Source: Collinsella sp. AK_207A (GTDB lineage Bacteria > Actinomycetota > Coriobacteriia > Coriobacteriales > Coriobacteriaceae). Taken from it: a DNA stretch of 64,000 nt. The stretch lies in NCBI RefSeq assembly GCF_902501965.1, contig NZ_CABWID010000010.1, forward strand, positions 372,001 to 436,000. The letters run 5' to 3'. The notes under the pieces were generated by a model. The model worked only from the letters and a program-made list of their open reading frames with translations. It made no database searches and was not told the origin of the DNA. The translations under genes and the position numbers were made by a program. Positions 3,766-49,480 of the stretch are shown here, one piece after another (within the stretch, counting starts at the first letter, position 1; the number at the start of each line of letters is the position of its first letter).

Positions 3766-5442
3766 ATGTCTCAGGAAACCATTCGCGCGGCGCAGCAGGC
3801 GACCGAGCGGAAGGCGGCGCTTGGCGCTTCGACGGACGACCTTGATCGCGATCAGCTGCACGAGGAGTGCGGTGTTTTCGGTGTGTGGGCACCCGGACGA
3901 GACGTGGCGCGTCTGACCTACTTCGGCCTGCGCGCGCTGCAGCACCGTGGCCAGGAATCCGCCGGCATCGCCGTGGGCGATGGCGGCACCGTGTGGGTGC
4001 GCAAGGACCTCGGCCTGCTCGGCACCGTGTTCTCCGCCGCGGACCTCTCCGCACTCACCGGCCAGCTCGCAGTGGGCCACGTTCGCTACGGCACGGCGGG
4101 TGCCAAGAGCTGGGAGGCCGCACAGCCGCATCTCTCCACCATCAACGACGTCATCATCGCGCTCGCGCACAACGGCACGCTCGTGAATACGGACGAGCTG
4201 CGTCGCCAGCTGATCGAGCTGGGCGTGCCCTTCCTCTCCAACTCCGACTCCGAGGTCGCGGCCAAGCTCATCGGCTACTTCACGCAGCGTACGCACCATC
4301 TGCGCGAGGGCATCCGCAAGACCATGGAACTCGTGCGCGGCGGCTACGCCATGACGCTCATCAACGAGCAGGCGCTCTACGCCTTCCGCGATCCATATGG
4401 CATCCGTCCGCTCGTGCTCGGCCGTCTGGCGGGCATGGGCCTGGACCAGCTGGATCCCAACGCCGTGGCCGCCATGCCCGCCACGGCGGACGACCCGCAC
4501 GCCGATACCGCCGCGCCCGTGGCGAGTGCCGGCGGCTGGGTGGTCGCCAGCGAGACCTGCGCGCTCGACATCGTGGGTGCGGAGTACGTGCGCGACGTGC
4601 GCCCTGGCGAGATCCTGCGCATCAGCGCCGAGGGCCTGGTGTCCGAGCAGGGCGTGCCCCCCATGTTGGAGAGCGCCGAGTGCATCTTCGAGCAGGTCTA
4701 CTTCGCTCGCCCTGACAGCATCATGAACGGCAAGTCCGTGTACGCCTGCCGCTACGACATGGGCCGTCAGCTCGCTCGCGAGGCGCCGGCCGACGTGGAT
4801 ATGGTCATCGGCGTGCCGGACTCCGGTATGCCGCCGGCAGAGGGCTTTGCCCATGAGCTGGGACTGCGCTATGGCGAGGGCCTCATCAAGAACCGCTACG
4901 TGGCCCGTACGTTCATCGAGCCCACGCAGGAGCTCCGCGCCATGGGCGTGCGCATGAAGCTGAACCCCCTCAAGGACAACATCGCCGGCAAGCGCCTGGT
5001 GGTCATCGACGACTCCATCGTGCGCGGCACCACCATGGTGCAGCTGGTGCGGATGCTTCGCGACGCCGGTGCGCGCGAGATCCATGTGCGCATCAACTCG
5101 CCCGAGGTGGTGTGGCCGTGCTTCTACGGCATCGACACAGACGTGCAGAGCCAGCTCATCAGCGCCAACAAGAGCGTGGACGAGATCTGCCGCTTCATCG
5201 GGGCCGATTCGCTCGCGTTCCTCTCGGTGCAGGGCTTGCTGAAGTGCGTGCCGCGCGGCGGGTACTGTACGGCGTGCTTCACCGGCGTGTACCCGGTGGC
5301 CATTCCCGAGAGCTTTGGGCGTGAGAAGTTCATGGACGGTTACCGCCCCGTGAGCCTGACAGCCCAGGAATCGCTGCCAGGCGACGTGGTGGTGGAGAAG
5401 GACCGCGACCGCACCTGGGAGGAAGAGCATCCCGGGGAGTAG
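3766..5442 (+). CDS. purF: Amidophosphoribosyltransferase
   Basis: This catalyses the first committed step of purine synthesis: PRPP plus glutamine gives phosphoribosylamine. The protein has 558 residues. Residues 1-34 form a propeptide that must be removed to expose the catalytic Cys35 (HEECGVFGVW). The class II glutaminase domain runs to about 270 and includes a ~30-residue Ala/Asp-rich insertion near 225-255. The phosphoribosyltransferase domain carries VVIDDSIVRGTTM at about 411-423. Cysteines 265, 452 (WPCFYG), 501 and 504 (YCTACF) sit where the Bacillus-type enzyme binds a [4Fe-4S] cluster, so an oxygen-sensitive Fe-S form is likely. ATG 3766 follows GAGGGGATGTC. purM and purN follow on the same strand. 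Confidence 0.97.
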   Translation: MSQETIRAAQQATERKAALGASTDDLDRDQLHEECGVFGVWAPGRDVARLTYFGLRALQHRGQESAGIAVGDGGTVWVRKDLGLLGTVFSAADLSALTGQLAVGHVRYGTAGAKSWEAAQPHLSTINDVIIALAHNGTLVNTDELRRQLIELGVPFLSNSDSEVAAKLIGYFTQRTHHLREGIRKTMELVRGGYAMTLINEQALYAFRDPYGIRPLVLGRLAGMGLDQLDPNAVAAMPATADDPHADTAAPVASAGGWVVASETCALDIVGAEYVRDVRPGEILRISAEGLVSEQGVPPMLESAECIFEQVYFARPDSIMNGKSVYACRYDMGRQLAREAPADVDMVIGVPDSGMPPAEGFAHELGLRYGEGLIKNRYVARTFIEPTQELRAMGVRMKLNPLKDNIAGKRLVVIDDSIVRGTTMVQLVRMLRDAGAREIHVRINSPEVVWPCFYGIDTDVQSQLISANKSVDEICRFIGADSLAFLSVQGLLKCVPRGGYCTACFTGVYPVAIPESFGREKFMDGYRPVSLTAQESLPGDVVVEKDRDRTWEEEHPGE

Positions 5443-5455
5443 GTCCCGCTGCTCA

Positions 5456-5493
5456 CTCTCAAATATCTCTCAAAACTGAGAGAAATTTGAGAG
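5456..5493. promoter_or_regulatory. AT-rich 17-bp inverted repeat between purF and purM
   Basis: Arms at 5456-5472 and 5477-5493 pair at 16 of 17 positions around the loop AAAC. It stands out in high-GC DNA. There is no T-run, so it is more likely an operator or mRNA structure than a classical terminator. A TACAAT that could be a -10 box for purM lies at 5528-5533. Confidence 0.5.
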
Positions 5494-5573
5494 ATGGCTG
5501 AGAGCGGAATCAGCGTCGCGTCTCTTTTACAATACGGACAGGAATCAGCACGACCACGCGAAAGGGCAGGCAC

Positions 5574-27188: not shown

Positions 27189-28648
27189 GCGCTCACGTCG
27201 ATTTCACTCGGGCAGATGCGGCGGCCTCGACCGTCCCCTGTCTACCCGCTCTCGAGGTCGAGGATCTCTCGTTCACCTATCCGGGTGCCGAGGCTCCCGT
27301 GCTGAACAGTCTTTCCTGGGAGGTTCCCGAGGGATCGTTCGCCCTGCTCGTGGGTGGTACCGGCAGCGGCAAGTCCACCTTGCTCTCGCTGTTGAAGCCA
27401 GAGATCGCACCGACGGGCGAGCGCGAGGGACGCCTGCTCGTGCTTGGCCGGCCGGTGTCGGACTATACGCCTGCTCAGTCCGCGCGCGCCATCGGCTACG
27501 TGTTTCAGAACCCCGACAACCAGCTCGTGTGCGAGAGCGTGTGGCATGAGATGGCGTTCTGCCTGGAAAACCTGGGGATGGAGCAGGGCGCCATGCGGCG
27601 CCGCGTGGCCGAGACCAGCTACTTCCTCGGCATGGAGGACTGGTTCCGGCACGATGTGGACACGCTTTCGGGCGGGCGCAAGCAGCTGCTGGCGCTGGCG
27701 TCCACGCTTGCCGTGCAGCCGCGCATCCTGCTGCTCGACGAGCCGACGGCGCAGCTCGATCCCATTGCTGAGAAGAACTTCCTGCACGCGCTCTTCCGTG
27801 TGAACCGTGAGCTGGGGTGCACGGTGGTCGTGGCGACGCATCAGCCGCGGGCGATGGTCGATTACGCGACCTGCGCGTTCCGGCTGTCCGGGGGCGCGTT
27901 GACGCGGGTGGACGACCTGGAGGCCCTGCGCGAGCGCGCGGCGCTGCTGCCGCGGGTGCCCGCTGCGGGGGAGGAAGGTGCAGGCGCCGGCCGAGTGGCC
28001 GTGGAGCTGCGCCGGGCGTGGTTTCGCTACGATCGCGGCGACGATTGGGTGCTTCGGAATCTCGACCTTTCCGTGCGTGCCGGGCGCATCCACGCGCTCG
28101 TGGGCGGCAACGGATGCGGCAAGTCCACGCTGCTCTCGCTCATGGCGGGGGTGCGCCGCCTGGATCTGGGCAAGCTTGTCTGTGCGGAGCGGGCTCGCGC
28201 GCTGCTGCCTCAGGACCCCCATGCGCTCTTTGCCGAGGAAACGGTAGATGCGGAGCTCATGGAGTGGGCGTCTGCTGCGGGGTACGGTCAGCGCGAGGCG
28301 AACGAGATGCTCGATGCGCTCGGGCTCGGGGCATGCGCGGCGCTTCATCCCTACGATCTGTCCGGGGGTCAGCAGCAGCTGCTCGCGCTCGGCAAACTCT
28401 TGCTCACCAAGCCGCGCTTGCTGTTGCTCGACGAGCCGACGAAGGGCCTCGACCTGCCCGCGCGTCGTGCCATCGCGCAGCTGTTGCGGGAGCAGGGGGA
28501 CGCCGGCGTCACGATGGTGGTGGCTACGCACGACCTCGACTTTGTGAGCCAGGTTGCCGACGACGTTTCCATGGTGTTCGACGGCGAGATCGCGTGCACG
28601 GCACCTCGAGAGGAGTTCTTCCGCGGCAATGTGTACTACCGACCCTAA
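27185..28648 (+). CDS. ecfA: ECF transporter ATPase, two fused nucleotide-binding domains
   Basis: 487 residues with two ABC ATPase domains in one chain (EcfA1-EcfA2 fusion). Domain 1: GGTGSGKST near 58, Q-loop YVFQNPDNQLV near 108, LSGGRKQLLAL near 162, ILLLDEPTAQLDP near 180. Domain 2: GGNGCGKST near 308, LSGGQQQLLAL near 395, LLLLDEPTKGLDL near 416. It powers the T and S components on either side. GTG 27185, preceded by AAAGGAGG, is the start; it overlaps the ecfT stop. Confidence 0.9.
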   Translation: MSAHVDFTRADAAASTVPCLPALEVEDLSFTYPGAEAPVLNSLSWEVPEGSFALLVGGTGSGKSTLLSLLKPEIAPTGEREGRLLVLGRPVSDYTPAQSARAIGYVFQNPDNQLVCESVWHEMAFCLENLGMEQGAMRRRVAETSYFLGMEDWFRHDVDTLSGGRKQLLALASTLAVQPRILLLDEPTAQLDPIAEKNFLHALFRVNRELGCTVVVATHQPRAMVDYATCAFRLSGGALTRVDDLEALRERAALLPRVPAAGEEGAGAGRVAVELRRAWFRYDRGDDWVLRNLDLSVRAGRIHALVGGNGCGKSTLLSLMAGVRRLDLGKLVCAERARALLPQDPHALFAEETVDAELMEWASAAGYGQREANEMLDALGLGACAALHPYDLSGGQQQLLALGKLLLTKPRLLLLDEPTKGLDLPARRAIAQLLREQGDAGVTMVVATHDLDFVSQVADDVSMVFDGEIACTAPREEFFRGNVYYRP

Positions 28649-29396
28649 CGCTTCCGGCGCAGGTGGCGCGGTCCGCTTGCGCGCGCGGCTGTGCCGTGGG
28701 TTCCTCGATGCGCTCGAGGTTCCTTTGCTGCTGGCGGTACCTTTGGTGATGACGGCGATGCTGTTGCTCGGGGTGCCGAACGCTGCTGGATTTATGTTGC
28801 TCGTGGTGGCGTTGGTGCTGCTGCTCTTCTTTGCCGGGTACGAGGCGGGGCGTCCGGCGCTCAGGCAGATCATGCCCACGCTCGTGCTGGCGTCGATCGC
28901 CGCCGCCGGACGCATCCTGTTCGCGTCCGTGCCCGACCTCAAGCCCGTCTCGGCCATCGCCATCATCGCGGGTGCGACGCTGGGCAGGAGAAACGGGTTC
29001 ATGGTCGGCGCGCTGGCGGCGCTCACGAGCAACTTCTTCTTTGGCCAGGGCATGTGGACGCCCTGGCAGATGTACGCCTGGGGCCTGGTGGGGTATCTGG
29101 GCGGCGTGCTCGCCGACGCCGGCGCCTTTGCGCGCCGGGACGGGTCGGTGCACCTGTCCGCGCTGCTGGTTTTTGGCTCGGCGTCCGGGTTGATTTTCGG
29201 CGCGATCATCAACGCGTACGACATCATCGGTTTCGTACAGCCGCTGACTGCGGCGGGCGCGGTGGCGAGGCTCGCCTCGGCCCTGCCGTTCGACGTGCTG
29301 CACGGTGTGGCGACGAGCGCGTTTCTCGCCGTGCTCTACGTGCCGTGGACGCGCCGCATCGCCCGAGTGGTCCGCAAGTACGGCCTTCGGAGCTGA
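28629..29396 (+). CDS. ECF transporter S component, substrate unknown
   Basis: 255 residues, about six membrane segments. The core resembles substrate-binding S proteins (ECF_trnsprt type): GRILFASVPDLKPVSAIAII, then GATLGRRNGFMVGALAALTS and FFFGQGMWTPWQM, followed by an AWGLVGYLGG motif. S components bind a vitamin or similar micronutrient and dock onto EcfT/EcfA. No riboswitch is visible upstream, so the ligand cannot be inferred. ATG 28629 overlaps the ecfA end by 20 bases; its ribosome site (GAGGAG at 28610) is rather far. It is the last gene before the large repeat array. Confidence 0.75.
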   Translation: MCTTDPNASGAGGAVRLRARLCRGFLDALEVPLLLAVPLVMTAMLLLGVPNAAGFMLLVVALVLLLFFAGYEAGRPALRQIMPTLVLASIAAAGRILFASVPDLKPVSAIAIIAGATLGRRNGFMVGALAALTSNFFFGQGMWTPWQMYAWGLVGYLGGVLADAGAFARRDGSVHLSALLVFGSASGLIFGAIINAYDIIGFVQPLTAAGAVARLASALPFDVLHGVATSAFLAVLYVPWTRRIARVVRKYGLRS

Positions 29397-29480: not shown

Positions 29481-29856
29481 GTTGCTAAGCAGGTCGTCCG
29501 GGAAGGGCGGGCAGTTGCTAAGCAGCTCTTCCGGGAAGGGGCGGTTGCTAAGCATACAGTCCACGAAGGGTGGGCGGTTGCTAAGCACGCTTTCCACGAA
29601 GAGAAGGTTGCTAAGCAGAACCACCTCGAAGGGGGCGGTTGCAAAGCAGATTGACCGCGAAGGGAAGCTTGCTAAGCAAATCGTCCACGAATGGGCTGTT
29701 TTTCGCCCCTTGATGGCAGATGTGCTTAGCAACTCCCAGTTGGTGGCATAGCTGCTTAGCAACCGCCCTCTTCCCGGAAGAGCTGCTTAGCAACCGCCCT
29801 CTTCCCGGAAGAACTGCTTAGCAACGCCCCTCTCGGTGGCAGATGTGCTTAGCAAC
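29481..29856. repeat. Convergent array 1 of GTTGCTAAGCA units (7 forward, 5 inverted)
   Basis: Forward units start at 29481, 29514, 29544, 29577, 29607, 29638 (variant) and 29668 (variant). Inverted units (TGCTTAGCAAC) start at 29723, 29753, 29784, 29815 and 29846. Spacing is 30-33 bp throughout. The ~20-bp spacers are also related (a CCACGAAGGG-like core). The centre (29690-29716) holds GGGC...GCCC around a T-run. No gene fits; frame is not kept between units. The 634-base gap 29397-30030 holds this array and otherwise nothing recognised. Confidence 0.9.
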
Positions 29857-30030
29857 TGCCCAACAATCAGCGCCCAGCGCCCAGCGTCCAGTGGGCCGTC
29901 GGGTTTGTCCGATTGTGCGGCGCACCCCTTCCGAGTCTCATTGCCTAGAACGTCTGCTCGCGGGTAGGATAAACGGGATTCAGATTGACGCGTGACGCGT
30001 TCGACCATGCCACCCCCCATCGGAGGTTCC

Positions 30031-32040
30031 ATGCACGGAGATACCATCCTGCTCATGACGTTTGTCCTGGCGCTCGTCGCCGCCTTTGCCGGCGGCCTCG
30101 TCGCCCGCGCCCTGCGCCTTCCGCCCATCGTGGGCTATCTGGTCGGCGGCCTGGTGGTGGGTCCGTTCACGCCCGGCTTTATCGGCGATTCCGATGCCAT
30201 GAGCCAGCTTTCCGAGATCGGCGTCATGTTCATGATGTTCGGCACGGGCCTGCACTTTTCCTTAAAGGATCTTTTCGAGGTTAAGGGCGTGGCGGTTCCC
30301 GGCGCTGTGTTGCAGATCGCAGCTGGTACCTGCGCGGGCTACGGCCTCGCCATAGCGTTTGGCTGGGAGCCCGCCGCCGGCGTGATGCTCGGCCTTTCCG
30401 TGTCTATCGCCTCGACCGTGGTGCTCATCAAGAACCTCACGGACGCCGGCCTCTACCAGACGCAGGGTGGCCGCATCGCAACGGGCTGGCTCATCGTGGA
30501 GGATCTGGCGACGGTCCTCATCTTGGTCGTGCTTCCCGTGGTGTTTGGTCCGGGGGAGATTTCCGGCGTGGAGCTGGCGGCGGAGCTGGGCCTCGCGCTC
30601 GGCAAGACCATGGCCTTCGTGGCGCTCATGCTCGTGGTGGGCTCGCGCGTGCTCCCCTGGCTGCTTGCCCGTATCGCGCGCTTCTGCCCTCGCGAGCTCT
30701 TCCAGCTCGCGGTAGTGGTCATCGCACTGGGTACGGCGATGCTCGCGTCGGCGCTTTTCGACCTCTCCGTGGCGCTTGGCGCCTTCTTGGCGGGCGTGGT
30801 GGTTTCCGGTTCCAAGCTCAGCCATCGCGTGGCGGCTGAGGCCATTCCCTTTCAAGACCTCTTTTCTATCATCTTCTTCGCGAGCGTGGGCATGATGGTC
30901 AATCCGTTCGTGCTGGCGGCGCACCTGCCCGAGCTCGCCATGCTCGTGGCGCTCATCATGGTGGGTAAGTGGCTCATCAACATGGTGCTAGGCGTGCTGC
31001 TCTCCGCCGGTCTGCGCGAAAGCCTGACCATCGGCGCCGGTCTCTCGCAGATCGGCGAGTTCTCGTTCCTCATCGGTCAGACGGGCATGGCGCTGGGCGT
31101 GCTCTCGGCCGACCAGTACAGCCTGATTCTGGGCGGCGCCGTGGTGTCCATCGCACTGAACTCCTTTGTGTTCAAGGGCGTGGCGCCGCTCGAGCGCGCC
31201 ATGCGACGCCATCCGCGACTCGTGGGGCTCTACGAGCGCCATGCGACGCAGTTCGAGCCGCCGGCCGAGGGTATGGAGGGTCACGTGGTCGTGGTGGGCT
31301 ACGGCCAAGCGGGCGGCTGCGTGGCGGACGTCCTTGCGGATCTGGACGTTCCCTGCCTGGTGGTTGAGCGCGATCTGGACAGCGCCGAGGAGGCGGAGGC
31401 CGCAGGGCTCGAGGTACTGATGGGCGACGCCGCCAATTCCGAGATTCTCAAGCACGCGAGCTTGGAACACGCCAAGCTGCTGGTCATCACCACGAGCGGT
31501 GAGTCCTCGGCCGAGAAGATCGCCCACGACGCGCGCGCCGTGAACCCGAACCTCACGATCATCGGTCGTGCGGAAACCGAGGACGGTGTTCGCGACCTCG
31601 CGGCGGCAGGTGTGGCCGAGGTGGTGCGCCCGCAGCTGGAAGGCGGCATCGAGCTCATGCGCCACACCCTGCTCGACCTGGGCTATCGTCCGCGCCAGAT
31701 TCAGGGCTACGTGAACGATTTGCGCGAGAGCGGCTACGAGGCCATGGGCGAGGACGCCCGCGTCAAGCGTTCACGCGCCATCGAGCGCTTGGTGGCGGGT
31801 TTGGCCGACGCGGACATCCGCTGGGTGCGCGTGGAGGACGCGGGCGAGGCGGCCGGCCGCACCCTCGCCGAGATCGACCTGCGCGCCCGCACGGGCGCCA
31901 GCGTGGTGGCTTTCCGCCACGACGGTCAGGTCCTGCCCCTCGTAGACCCTGACGCCAAACTCTGCCCCGGTGACTGCCTTGCCCTCATGGGCGCCGACGA
32001 AGACGTGGAAGCGGCCGAGAAGCTCCTGGCAGGGGAGTAA
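30031..32040 (+). CDS. CPA2-family cation:proton antiporter with TrkA-N and TrkA-C domains (KefB-like)
   Basis: 669 residues. The first ~385 form about 12 membrane segments of the Na+/H+ exchanger fold (RLPPIVGYLVGGLVVGPF near 30; GWLIVEDLATVLILV near 150 with the ion-binding Asp). Then comes a TrkA-N (RCK) NAD-binding domain beginning HVVVVGYGQAGGCVADVLAD near 417, and a TrkA-C domain near 600-665. Such proteins move K+ or Na+ against H+ under nucleotide control. CGGAGG upstream supports ATG 30031; the longer frame from 29992 lacks a ribosome site. Palindrome D follows. Confidence 0.88.
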   Translation: MHGDTILLMTFVLALVAAFAGGLVARALRLPPIVGYLVGGLVVGPFTPGFIGDSDAMSQLSEIGVMFMMFGTGLHFSLKDLFEVKGVAVPGAVLQIAAGTCAGYGLAIAFGWEPAAGVMLGLSVSIASTVVLIKNLTDAGLYQTQGGRIATGWLIVEDLATVLILVVLPVVFGPGEISGVELAAELGLALGKTMAFVALMLVVGSRVLPWLLARIARFCPRELFQLAVVVIALGTAMLASALFDLSVALGAFLAGVVVSGSKLSHRVAAEAIPFQDLFSIIFFASVGMMVNPFVLAAHLPELAMLVALIMVGKWLINMVLGVLLSAGLRESLTIGAGLSQIGEFSFLIGQTGMALGVLSADQYSLILGGAVVSIALNSFVFKGVAPLERAMRRHPRLVGLYERHATQFEPPAEGMEGHVVVVGYGQAGGCVADVLADLDVPCLVVERDLDSAEEAEAAGLEVLMGDAANSEILKHASLEHAKLLVITTSGESSAEKIAHDARAVNPNLTIIGRAETEDGVRDLAAAGVAEVVRPQLEGGIELMRHTLLDLGYRPRQIQGYVNDLRESGYEAMGEDARVKRSRAIERLVAGLADADIRWVRVEDAGEAAGRTLAEIDLRARTGASVVAFRHDGQVLPLVDPDAKLCPGDCLALMGADEDVEAAEKLLAGE

Positions 32041-47258: not shown

Positions 47259-47933
47259 ATGCTCAAGGCGGTCATCTTCGACATGGACGGCACGCTGATC
47301 GATAGCGAGCGACTCGGGCGCAGGGCCTGGCATCAGGCGGCCCAGGAGCTCGGTTGCAGCGATGTCATCACCGACGACCTGCTCGTTACGTTTACCGGAC
47401 TGCAGCCGGCGCCCGTCAAGGCGCTGCTCGTGGAAGCGGTGGGTAGCGAAGAGCTGGCCAACCGCCTGCTCGAGCGCTCGTCCGACATCCGCGTGAACGA
47501 GTTGGCGCCGACAGAGCTCGAGCCCAAGGCGGGCGCACGCAAGGTGCTTGCGGACTTGAAGGCCCTGGGGATTCATCGCGCACTGGCGACTTCGACCGTA
47601 CGCCCCGCGGCGCTCCGCAGCTTGGACCTTGCGGGGTTGAACGGCCAGCTCGATTCCATCACCACGGGCGACGAGTGCGAGCACGGCAAACCCGCTCCGG
47701 ACATTTTCTTGCTCGCGGCGAGTCGCGCCGGGGCCGCGCCCGAGGAATGCGCCGTGGTGGAGGACTCACCAAACGGTGCTCGCGCTGGTCACACGGCTGG
47801 TATGGCCGTCTACTTCGTTCCGGATCTCATTGCGCCCACGGACGAGGTGCGGGGCTTGGCAACCGAGGTGCTTCCATCGCTGAACGAGCTGATACCCGCC
47901 CTTGAGTCGCGGTTCGGGGCCTTGGGTGAGTAG
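47259..47933 (+). CDS. HAD-family hydrolase, beta-phosphoglucomutase-like
   Basis: 224 residues. Motif I is FDMDGTLIDSE (residues 7-17), a helical cap follows (~18-90), motif II is ATSTVRP near 110, and the Lys/acidic motifs are HGKPAPDIFLLAA near 145 and VVEDSPNGARAG near 167. This subfamily includes phosphoglucomutases and sugar-phosphate phosphatases; the substrate cannot be fixed from sequence. GGGGAAGGGGAG precedes ATG 47259. Convergent array 2 follows the stop. Confidence 0.85.
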   Translation: MLKAVIFDMDGTLIDSERLGRRAWHQAAQELGCSDVITDDLLVTFTGLQPAPVKALLVEAVGSEELANRLLERSSDIRVNELAPTELEPKAGARKVLADLKALGIHRALATSTVRPAALRSLDLAGLNGQLDSITTGDECEHGKPAPDIFLLAASRAGAAPEECAVVEDSPNGARAGHTAGMAVYFVPDLIAPTDEVRGLATEVLPSLNELIPALESRFGALGE

Positions 47934-47989: not shown

Positions 47990-48208
47990 GTTGCTAAGCA
48001 GACTCTCCACCCAGGGGGACGTTGCTAAGCAAACTGACCACCCAGAGGGACGTTGCTAAGCAAACTGACCACCTAGATACATTTGCTAAGCAGATTTGCC
48101 TCCAAGGGCGCTAAAACGGGCTCTTCGTGGCAGATATGCTTAGCAACCGCCTTCTGGTGGCGGGACTGCTTAGCAACCGCCCCGTGAGTGGCAGGACTGC
48201 TTAGCAAC
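47990..48208. repeat. Convergent array 2 of GTTGCTAAGCA units (4 forward, 3 inverted)
   Basis: Forward units start at 47990, 48021, 48052 and 48082 (variant TTTGCTAAGCA). Inverted units start at 48137, 48167 and 48198. Spacing is 30-31 bp. The centre (48093-48136) resembles that of array 1 next to the first inverted unit (TGGCAGATATGCTTAGCAAC). The 455-base gap 47934-48388 holds only this array and a possible -10 box (TAGAAT, 48329-48334) for the LacI gene. Confidence 0.9.
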
Positions 48209-48388: not shown

Positions 48389-49480
48389 GTGGCAAAGGTC
48401 ACCATTCAGGACGTGGCTCGCGAGGCGGGGGTGGCGCTCGGCACCGTGTCCAACGTGCTCAATCATCCCGAGAAGGTCAAGCCCGCCACCATGCGGCTCG
48501 TGCGCGACGCTATGGATCGCCTGGGCTACGCGCCCAACCAGAGCGCCCGCCTGCTCGCCGGCGGCCAGCAGCGCATTTTCGGACTCGTGCTTCCCCGTCT
48601 CGGTCACGGGTTCTCGTTGCAGATTTCGAGCGGGGCGGAAGCCGAGGCGCTGCGCCACGGCTACGATCTGCTCATCGCCAACGCTGACGACGATGATGCC
48701 CGCAGCGACCGCTACGCGCGCCTGTTCGCCGGCATGCAGGTGGCGGGCATCCTGGTCCAGCCGCTCGCCGAGCGCGATTGGCGCCCGCCCGCGGCCCCCG
48801 TCACTGGAGACGCCAACATTCCCATCGTCTACCTGGGCATTCAGAGCGATGAGCCCGGTTGGTTCGCGGCGGCTGACAACGGGGCGCAGGGTCGCCTCAT
48901 CGCCGAGCACGCCATCGAGCGCGGCGCCCACCACGTGGCGGTGTTCGGCAAGGCCGAGACCATCCGCAGGGCGCAGCGAGCCGCCGGAATCGGAGCGGTG
49001 GCAGAGGACAATCCCTCAGTCCGCTTTGAGTTCTTGGACGAAGGCACCTGGGACCGCGCGCACGACGGGTACGAGATCGGCCGCCGCCTTGCCAAGCGTC
49101 CGGTGGACGAGCGCCCCGACTTCGTGATCGCGCTCACCGACGCCTTGGCCACGGGCGCCATCACCGGCATACAGTCCGCGGGTCTCTCGGTGCCGGACGA
49201 CATCATGGTGGCAGGCGGCGACGGAAACCCGCTCGCGTGGACGGGCGGCGTGTCGCTGACGACGGTGGTGCCCCTGGGGTACGAGGTGGGCCGTCGCGGC
49301 GTGCAGTCGCTGGTGGAGCAGGGCGAGATGGAGCGCCGCGCGCGTAAGACGGGCAAGCCGGTGGACCGTACCGTCAACCACCAGGCGCTGGTGCGTCCGT
49401 TCCTGCTCGCTCGCACGAGTACGGGCGTCTTCACGCGCTCTGCCAGCGATTACGAGATGGACCTGGGCGCCCACCTCTAG
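48389..49480 (+). CDS. LacI-family transcriptional regulator
   Basis: 363 residues. The N-terminal HTH and hinge read VTIQDVAREAGVALGTVSNV, with LNHPEKVKPATMRLVRDAMD following and LGYAPNQSARLLAGG at ~45-60. A periplasmic-binding-like sugar sensor domain fills residues ~62-345, including IPIVYLGIQSD, GRLIAEHAIERGAHHVAVF and VPDDIMVAGGDGNPLAW. The start is GTG 48389 after GGGAGGC. No sugar operon is adjacent (glmS follows), so the target is unknown. Confidence 0.9.
   Translation: MAKVTIQDVAREAGVALGTVSNVLNHPEKVKPATMRLVRDAMDRLGYAPNQSARLLAGGQQRIFGLVLPRLGHGFSLQISSGAEAEALRHGYDLLIANADDDDARSDRYARLFAGMQVAGILVQPLAERDWRPPAAPVTGDANIPIVYLGIQSDEPGWFAAADNGAQGRLIAEHAIERGAHHVAVFGKAETIRRAQRAAGIGAVAEDNPSVRFEFLDEGTWDRAHDGYEIGRRLAKRPVDERPDFVIALTDALATGAITGIQSAGLSVPDDIMVAGGDGNPLAWTGGVSLTTVVPLGYEVGRRGVQSLVEQGEMERRARKTGKPVDRTVNHQALVRPFLLARTSTGVFTRSASDYEMDLGAHL

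Follow-up and report, generated by a model that had tools for sequence, protein, structure and literature searches.

The window analysed here, a stretch of 64,000 nucleotides from the genome of Collinsella sp. AK_207A, contains two intergenic arrays of a short, oriented motif (Table 1). Array 1 lies between genes for a transporter component and an ion exchanger, and array 2 between those for a hydrolase and a regulator. A sequence-only reading had described array 1 as twelve near-identical 11-bp units, seven in one orientation followed by five inverted, and motif matching with GTTGCTAAGCA bears out this description. The 30-33 bp spacing that it reported also holds: successive units follow at 33, 30, 33, 30, 31 and 30 bp on the left, the central step is 55 bp, and the units on the right follow at 30, 31, 31 and 31 bp, around a centre that reads GGGCTGTTTTTCGCCC. 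The number of motif matches in the window was reached in none of 100 dinucleotide-preserving shuffles. No T-tailed terminator was found between array 1 and its upstream gene, or between array 2 and its own upstream gene.

Table 1. Coordinates of the arrays, their flanking genes and the transposase gene discussed in the text (window positions unless a contig or locus is named)
Feature	Position	Strand	Remark
Gene upstream of array 1, ECF-transporter S-component-like	28629..29396	+	stop 85 bp before array
Array 1, 7 forward + 5 reverse units around dyad	29481..29856	.	
Array 1 unit GTTGCTAAGCA	29481..29491	+	exact
Array 1 unit GTTGCTAAGCA	29514..29524	+	exact
Array 1 unit GTTGCTAAGCA	29544..29554	+	exact
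Array 1 unit GTTGCTAAGCA	29577..29587	+	exact
Array 1 unit GTTGCTAAGCA	29607..29617	+	exact
Array 1 unit GTTGCAAAGCA	29638..29648	+	1 mismatch
Array 1 innermost left unit CTTGCTAAGCA	29668..29678	+	1 mismatch
Array 1 66-bp palindromic core, two facing modules, 16-bp centre	29668..29733	.	ungapped 12-core alignment, covariation, model hit
Array 1 innermost right unit	29723..29733	-	exact
Array 1 unit	29753..29763	-	exact
Array 1 unit	29784..29794	-	exact
Array 1 unit	29815..29825	-	exact
Array 1 unit	29846..29856	-	exact
Gene downstream of array 1, Na+/H+ exchanger with TrkA domains	30007..32040	+	
Gene upstream of array 2, HAD hydrolase	47259..47933	+	stop 57 bp before array
Array 2, 4 forward + 3 reverse units	47990..48208	.	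geometry as array 1 (31, 31, 30, central 55, 30, 31)
Array 2 66-bp palindromic core	48082..48147	.	core alignment, model hit
Gene downstream of array 2, LacI-family regulator	48389..49480	+	
Single-copy Y1 transposase gene	C16:12714-13007; L179 3214-3507		palindrome nearby: GTGGTACA...TGTACCAC; also GTGGTACATTGGGAC...GTCCCACTGTACCAC

The 2.1 Mb genome carries 62 exact copies of GTTGCTAAGCA, 31 per strand. With units of one or two mismatches counted as well to complete the arrays, 61 of these copies fall in 12 arrays, and the remaining one lies within a coding gene. The geometry of the arrays is strikingly rigid. In all 12, the units run forward and then reverse, pointing at the centre, and the innermost facing units start 55 bp apart, which gives a core of 66 bp. 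Wherever an outer unit is present, the first lies exactly 30 bp beyond the innermost one (23 of 23 sides). The other 45 spacings measure 28-34 or 41-42 bp, with none at 35-40 bp. These values, together with the fixed steps of 30 and 55 bp and those of 30-31 bp in a relative described below (G082), place the sites in helical phase. The 41-42-bp steps trace to only about four independent events, so that helical phasing is supported, rather than proven, by this genome alone; a Rayleigh test on the spacings leaves periods of 10 and 11 unseparated, is inflated by duplicated units, and is not used as proof.

Could the fixed 30-bp step simply be the result of recent copying? From one array to another, the first spacers share only about half of their sequence, which argues otherwise. 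Information content in the outer units is 1.5-2.0 bits per column for the box TTGCTAAGCA and 0.3-1.3 for most spacer columns; the unit consensus is GTTGCTAAGCAga..tgCCaccaag. The spacers, which had been taken for degenerate repeats, are indeed related to one another.

The 66-bp cores of the 12 arrays align without gaps, and their two arms covary, with matched changes in 11 of the 26 column pairs and a covariation score that no shuffle reached. When 40 cores from five genomes are combined, 22 of the 26 pairs have matched changes (220 cells versus 82 expected), and the score is reached by 0 of 500 shuffles. The outer arms behave differently. Mirrored outer spacers are alike at 0.314, compared with 0.311 for spacers of other arrays, while spacers and modules within one arm are more alike (0.466) than those of different arrays (0.311). 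Since mirror spacers are unmatched and same-arm spacers are alike, the outer arms have the look of oriented modules multiplied in tandem. The description of the two halves of array 1 as mutual reverse complements, which would allow the whole array to fold on itself, therefore stands in part: its RNA folds much better than shuffled sequences (z = -16), but covariation between arms is confined to the 66-bp core, and the outer spacers do not follow. A single selected RNA hairpin spanning the whole array is rejected by the same mirror-arm comparison. For the core, that comparison gives p = 0.05 with loop columns included; these columns bias the test, and we have relied on column-pair covariation instead.

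How widely is this layout shared? The tandem 11-mer pattern was found by exact-motif search in none of 44 same-genus genomes, and the 11-mer array was absent from class-wide samples, where the one match outside its own genome is a lone palindromic pair in G298. An exact match in Streptococcus is unrelated coding sequence, phage matches are AT-rich tandem repeats with another period, and searches of phage and plasmid collections gave no similarity to the arrays. A covariance model of the core, however, matched elements elsewhere in the family, in other genera. One genome of another genus (G082) has 16 elements with CTTCTTATGCAGAATGGACGC-like modules, whose cores again measure 66 bp; an outer module stands at 30-31 bp on 30 of their 32 sides, with match scores of 14-21 versus 13 or less at random positions. 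The arrays of G276 carry a GCATGCATTTTCG-like module, and in G298 and G117 most elements are single cores, with a centre of 17 bp. The model built from five genomes matched 9 of 400 Coriobacteriia genomes at E <= 1e-5, 8 of them in this family and 1, a weak match, outside it; element counts per genome from this search are lower limits, at most 13 candidates having been scored in each. The combined alignment omits hairpins of the AAAGCG class, which the first core model had picked up; they are long hairpins that may have no relation to the element. Given that G082 keeps the core and the outer spacing with a different motif, the layout has been conserved through a turnover of the sequence. Relatives thus do not carry the motif randomly scattered: the 11-mer array is absent from them, and the architecture is present with other sequences. 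A comparison of sequence alone, and not of geometry, can miss repeat families of this kind.

Selection on an RNA structure and selection on DNA should leave different traces in the mismatched pairs. Non-Watson-Crick pairs in the 40 cores number 34 G.U versus 28 A.C, and elements in tandem contexts, read in the direction of transcription, have 11 G.U and 11 A.C (a small sample overall, in which both strands may be transcribed between convergent genes). A strand-specific RNA structure should favour G.U, and the lack of any excess suggests that selection acts on DNA. In this genome, a T run of four or more after the inner stem is present on 2 of 24 strands only, though some elements of relatives do have a T-tract after the stem. 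The scarce T-tracts and the missing G.U excess together point to selection or mutation on DNA. Rfam found only tRNA in the window at the gathering threshold, and with E allowed to reach 1 at ten element loci, the only matches besides tRNA were to eukaryotic miRNAs, below threshold and of a sort that any long hairpin gives.

The arrays might also be a product of mutation with no function: slippage would multiply the modules, and template switching within the palindrome would keep the core arms matched. The greater likeness of modules within an arm (0.466 versus 0.311) is what local duplication predicts, a matched change in the two arms (TAG..CTA to TAT..ATA) separates L155 from its orthologue L163, and the equal numbers of G.U and A.C fit a DNA process. 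Mutation of this kind nevertheless leaves unexplained why 11 bp in each module are near-fixed beside diverging spacers, why the first spacing is exactly 30 bp on 23 of 23 sides, and why the same spacing recurs with another motif in another genus, and we regard it as a highly improbable account.

The position of the arrays raises the question of transcription termination. Gene calls from a simple hexamer model place 4 of the 12 between convergent genes, about 6 in tandem contexts and 1 or 2 between divergent genes; the divergent context of L041 is doubtful, involving a small plus-strand reading frame without a clear start in the frame examined. Of the 12 facing gene 3' ends at a distance of up to 120 bp from an array, 11 have no T-tailed terminator before it, while 24 of 64 control ends have one, a comparison that is suggestive only because the search lengths were unequal. 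Base rates for gene context were taken from about 150 kb of the same genome. Perhaps, then, these elements terminate transcription in both directions or insulate 3' ends, acting as RNA hairpins in which the core is the stem on either strand and the outer repeats are by-products or strengthen it. The 3' end of purB is consistent with this idea: most genomes of the family have a strong T-tailed terminator there, none was found before the array in G000, an element occupies the place in G298 and G117 too, and the G117 element itself scores as a terminator. Most elements in relatives sit between convergent genes or behind a gene, and we also count in favour that intrinsic terminators evolve by compensatory change, as one study describes (PMC5381666). 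The 3' ends of murG proved useless as a terminator control, with a terminator in only 3 of 29 relatives.

Several features are hard to reconcile with an RNA terminator. These are the T runs on just 2 of 24 strands, the lack of a G.U excess even in the transcribed direction (11 versus 11), and outer arms that do not match their mirror arms. Moreover, the gene in front of the L042 array has a terminator of its own, two arrays are 330-361 bp from the nearest facing 3' end, the L038 array seemingly lies between divergent genes, and the 30-31-bp outer spacing is left unexplained. On these grounds we consider such a terminator or insulator rather unlikely. The early proposal of a large terminator thus finds no support in the T-tracts and wobble pairs, and a role in termination or insulation is retained because the arrays often stand at 3' ends lacking an ordinary terminator.

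The distribution of the elements also bears on whether they are mobile. Array subfamilies (35/36, 33a/41 and 32/38) occur at unrelated sites, and the orthologous sites in same-genus genomes are without arrays. In G298, two near-identical elements with a shared flank bracket a 10-kb insert, and at the same chromosomal site, elements bracket different cargo in G298 (L252/L253) and G117 (L254). Two arrays of the present genome bracket a 339-aa ORF, which has no Pfam match, between a luxR-type gene and purB (L033 5132-6810). The subfamilies and the cargo-bracketing elements show dispersal or recombination, by whatever mechanism. All of this could be expected of mobile or selfish palindromes of the REP or MITE kind, which a transposase or recombination would spread and which would have no function in the host, and the related subfamilies at scattered sites agree with the initial suggestion of a non-autonomous mobile element. 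A link to a transposase, however, was not found. The only Y1 (REP-type) transposase gene of the genome adjoins another palindrome and not an array unit, which led us to reject an association of the arrays with it; the Y1 genes of relatives are flanked by repeats other than the array element, and no Y1 gene was found in G298 despite 13 element matches. In addition, neither fixed element ends nor target duplications were seen, the copy number is only 12, and the spacing is kept despite diverged spacers, as selfish decay would not do. We therefore think it quite unlikely that the arrays are simply mobile or selfish repeats. As a separate observation, the Y1 genes of relatives (L183 3621, L184 3717, L187 2398) are followed by GGGGACGNGTTC...GAACNCGTCCCC palindromes, apparently their own REP family.

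The interpretation that we favour, tentatively and at somewhat short of an even chance, is that the arrays are a dyad-symmetric, helically phased DNA platform for a putative sequence-specific DNA-binding protein, often at gene 3' ends. A multi-site platform on one face of the helix had been among the roles first suggested, and it gains from a geometry that is fixed to the base and recurs with another motif in another genus. Each module of about 30 bp, consisting of the TTGCTAAGCA box and a weaker box CCAC.AAG, would be one oriented site, and two modules facing each other across the 16-bp centre would form the 66-bp palindromic core with its fixed geometry. Tandem duplication would add further modules on the outside, of which only those in phase with the helix, at about three or four turns, would be kept. 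The putative protein could spread cooperatively outward from the core, and the complex, lying between genes and often just past their 3' ends, could act as a block to transcription, as an insulator or as an organiser of the chromosome. The layout would be under constraint, and the sequence would turn over within each genome. We infer protein binding, its cooperativity and any effect on transcription or chromosome structure; the copy number, the fixed geometry, the phasing, the covariation of the core and the architecture conserved across genera with a different motif are the observations behind the platform.

The main weakness of the platform is that correlated changes in the core arms are better explained by a hairpin, or by palindrome-correcting mutation, than by independent sites. 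Nor would an old, conserved DNA-binding protein be expected to have a motif that differs between genomes, unless the specificity of the protein shifts fast as well, and the 3'-end position without an ordinary terminator, true of most arrays, also fits termination and so counts against the platform. It is possible, though on balance doubtful, that one Coriobacteriia family has in these arrays a class of chromosomal DNA element not described before, with a 66-bp palindromic core, phased outward modules and a fast-evolving putative reader protein. The recognised sequence would then turn over in concert within each genome while the architecture is kept between genera, as when a site family and its reader co-evolve. 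If the platform is real, this lineage would have a system for organising the chromosome or insulating transcription that has gone unrecognised; from genus to genus the system would retain its layout and change its sequence code, and dispersed sites would have undergone an unusual concerted evolution with their reader protein.

How do the arrays compare with known systems? They belong broadly with interspersed palindromic repeats, and fail the features tested for REP elements (tag and transposase) and for terminators (T-tract). Like REP/BIME elements they are intergenic and palindromic, have a genome-specific sequence, often lie at 3' ends and combine several units. The REP/BIME unit, however, is tagged by GTAG or CGTC (PMC3733652), and the array unit consensus has neither tag. 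The array units are also without a Y1 transposase link, they form 30-bp tandem modules with one orientation switch and a fixed 66-bp core, and they occupy about 12 loci in this genome, not hundreds. Intrinsic bidirectional terminators share the palindromic core, the compensatory changes and the frequent position behind genes and between convergent ones, but the arrays have few T-tracts, no wobble excess, phased outer modules and at least one seemingly divergent site.

Iteron, operator and ParB/ParR-type arrays consist of repeated, short, oriented sites in helical phase, which can seed a cooperative nucleoprotein complex, and the present arrays resemble them in these sites. They differ in being dispersed over the chromosome and in switching orientation at a fixed core, and no replication, partition or repressor protein gene was noticed adjoining them. 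DNA uptake sequences occur at very high dispersed copy numbers; the array word is likewise genome-specific and short, with inverted pairs at gene ends, but its 61 11-mers are confined to 12 arrays and none is dispersed singly. CRISPR arrays have direct repeats of 21 bp or more and unrelated spacers, whereas here the conserved part is 11 bp, the spacers are related and the orientation switches, as had been pointed out from the start. In the limited set of literature searched, there was no description of such arrays in these bacteria.

Other repeats were met near the arrays or in the same searches. A palindrome class of 65-66 bp, AAAGCGTNNCAC...GTGNNACGCTTT, without outer modules, occurs in G082 (L140, L145), G276 (L151-L153) and G013 (L168, L169); its ends are A-rich and T-rich as in bidirectional terminators, and it is possibly related to the core. 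Repeats of GAGTTGTGAACGC in both orientations adjoin two arrays (L039 4845, 4934; L040 5149, 5224, 5270). Within the window, three near-identical hairpins, GCAGATCCTGCGCATATCGGCGATATGGAGGTCGATATGCGCAGGATTCGTTACATCTGC, at about 13607, 16563 and 18095 are possibly leaders or operator sites. A second type of inverted array, with CTCTCAAAT/CTCTCAGAT units and a period of about 11 bp, lies just past a gene, and similar arrays in two same-genus genomes stand at the far end of their antiporter locus (window 5441-5511; L075 at about 3598; L083 at about 114).
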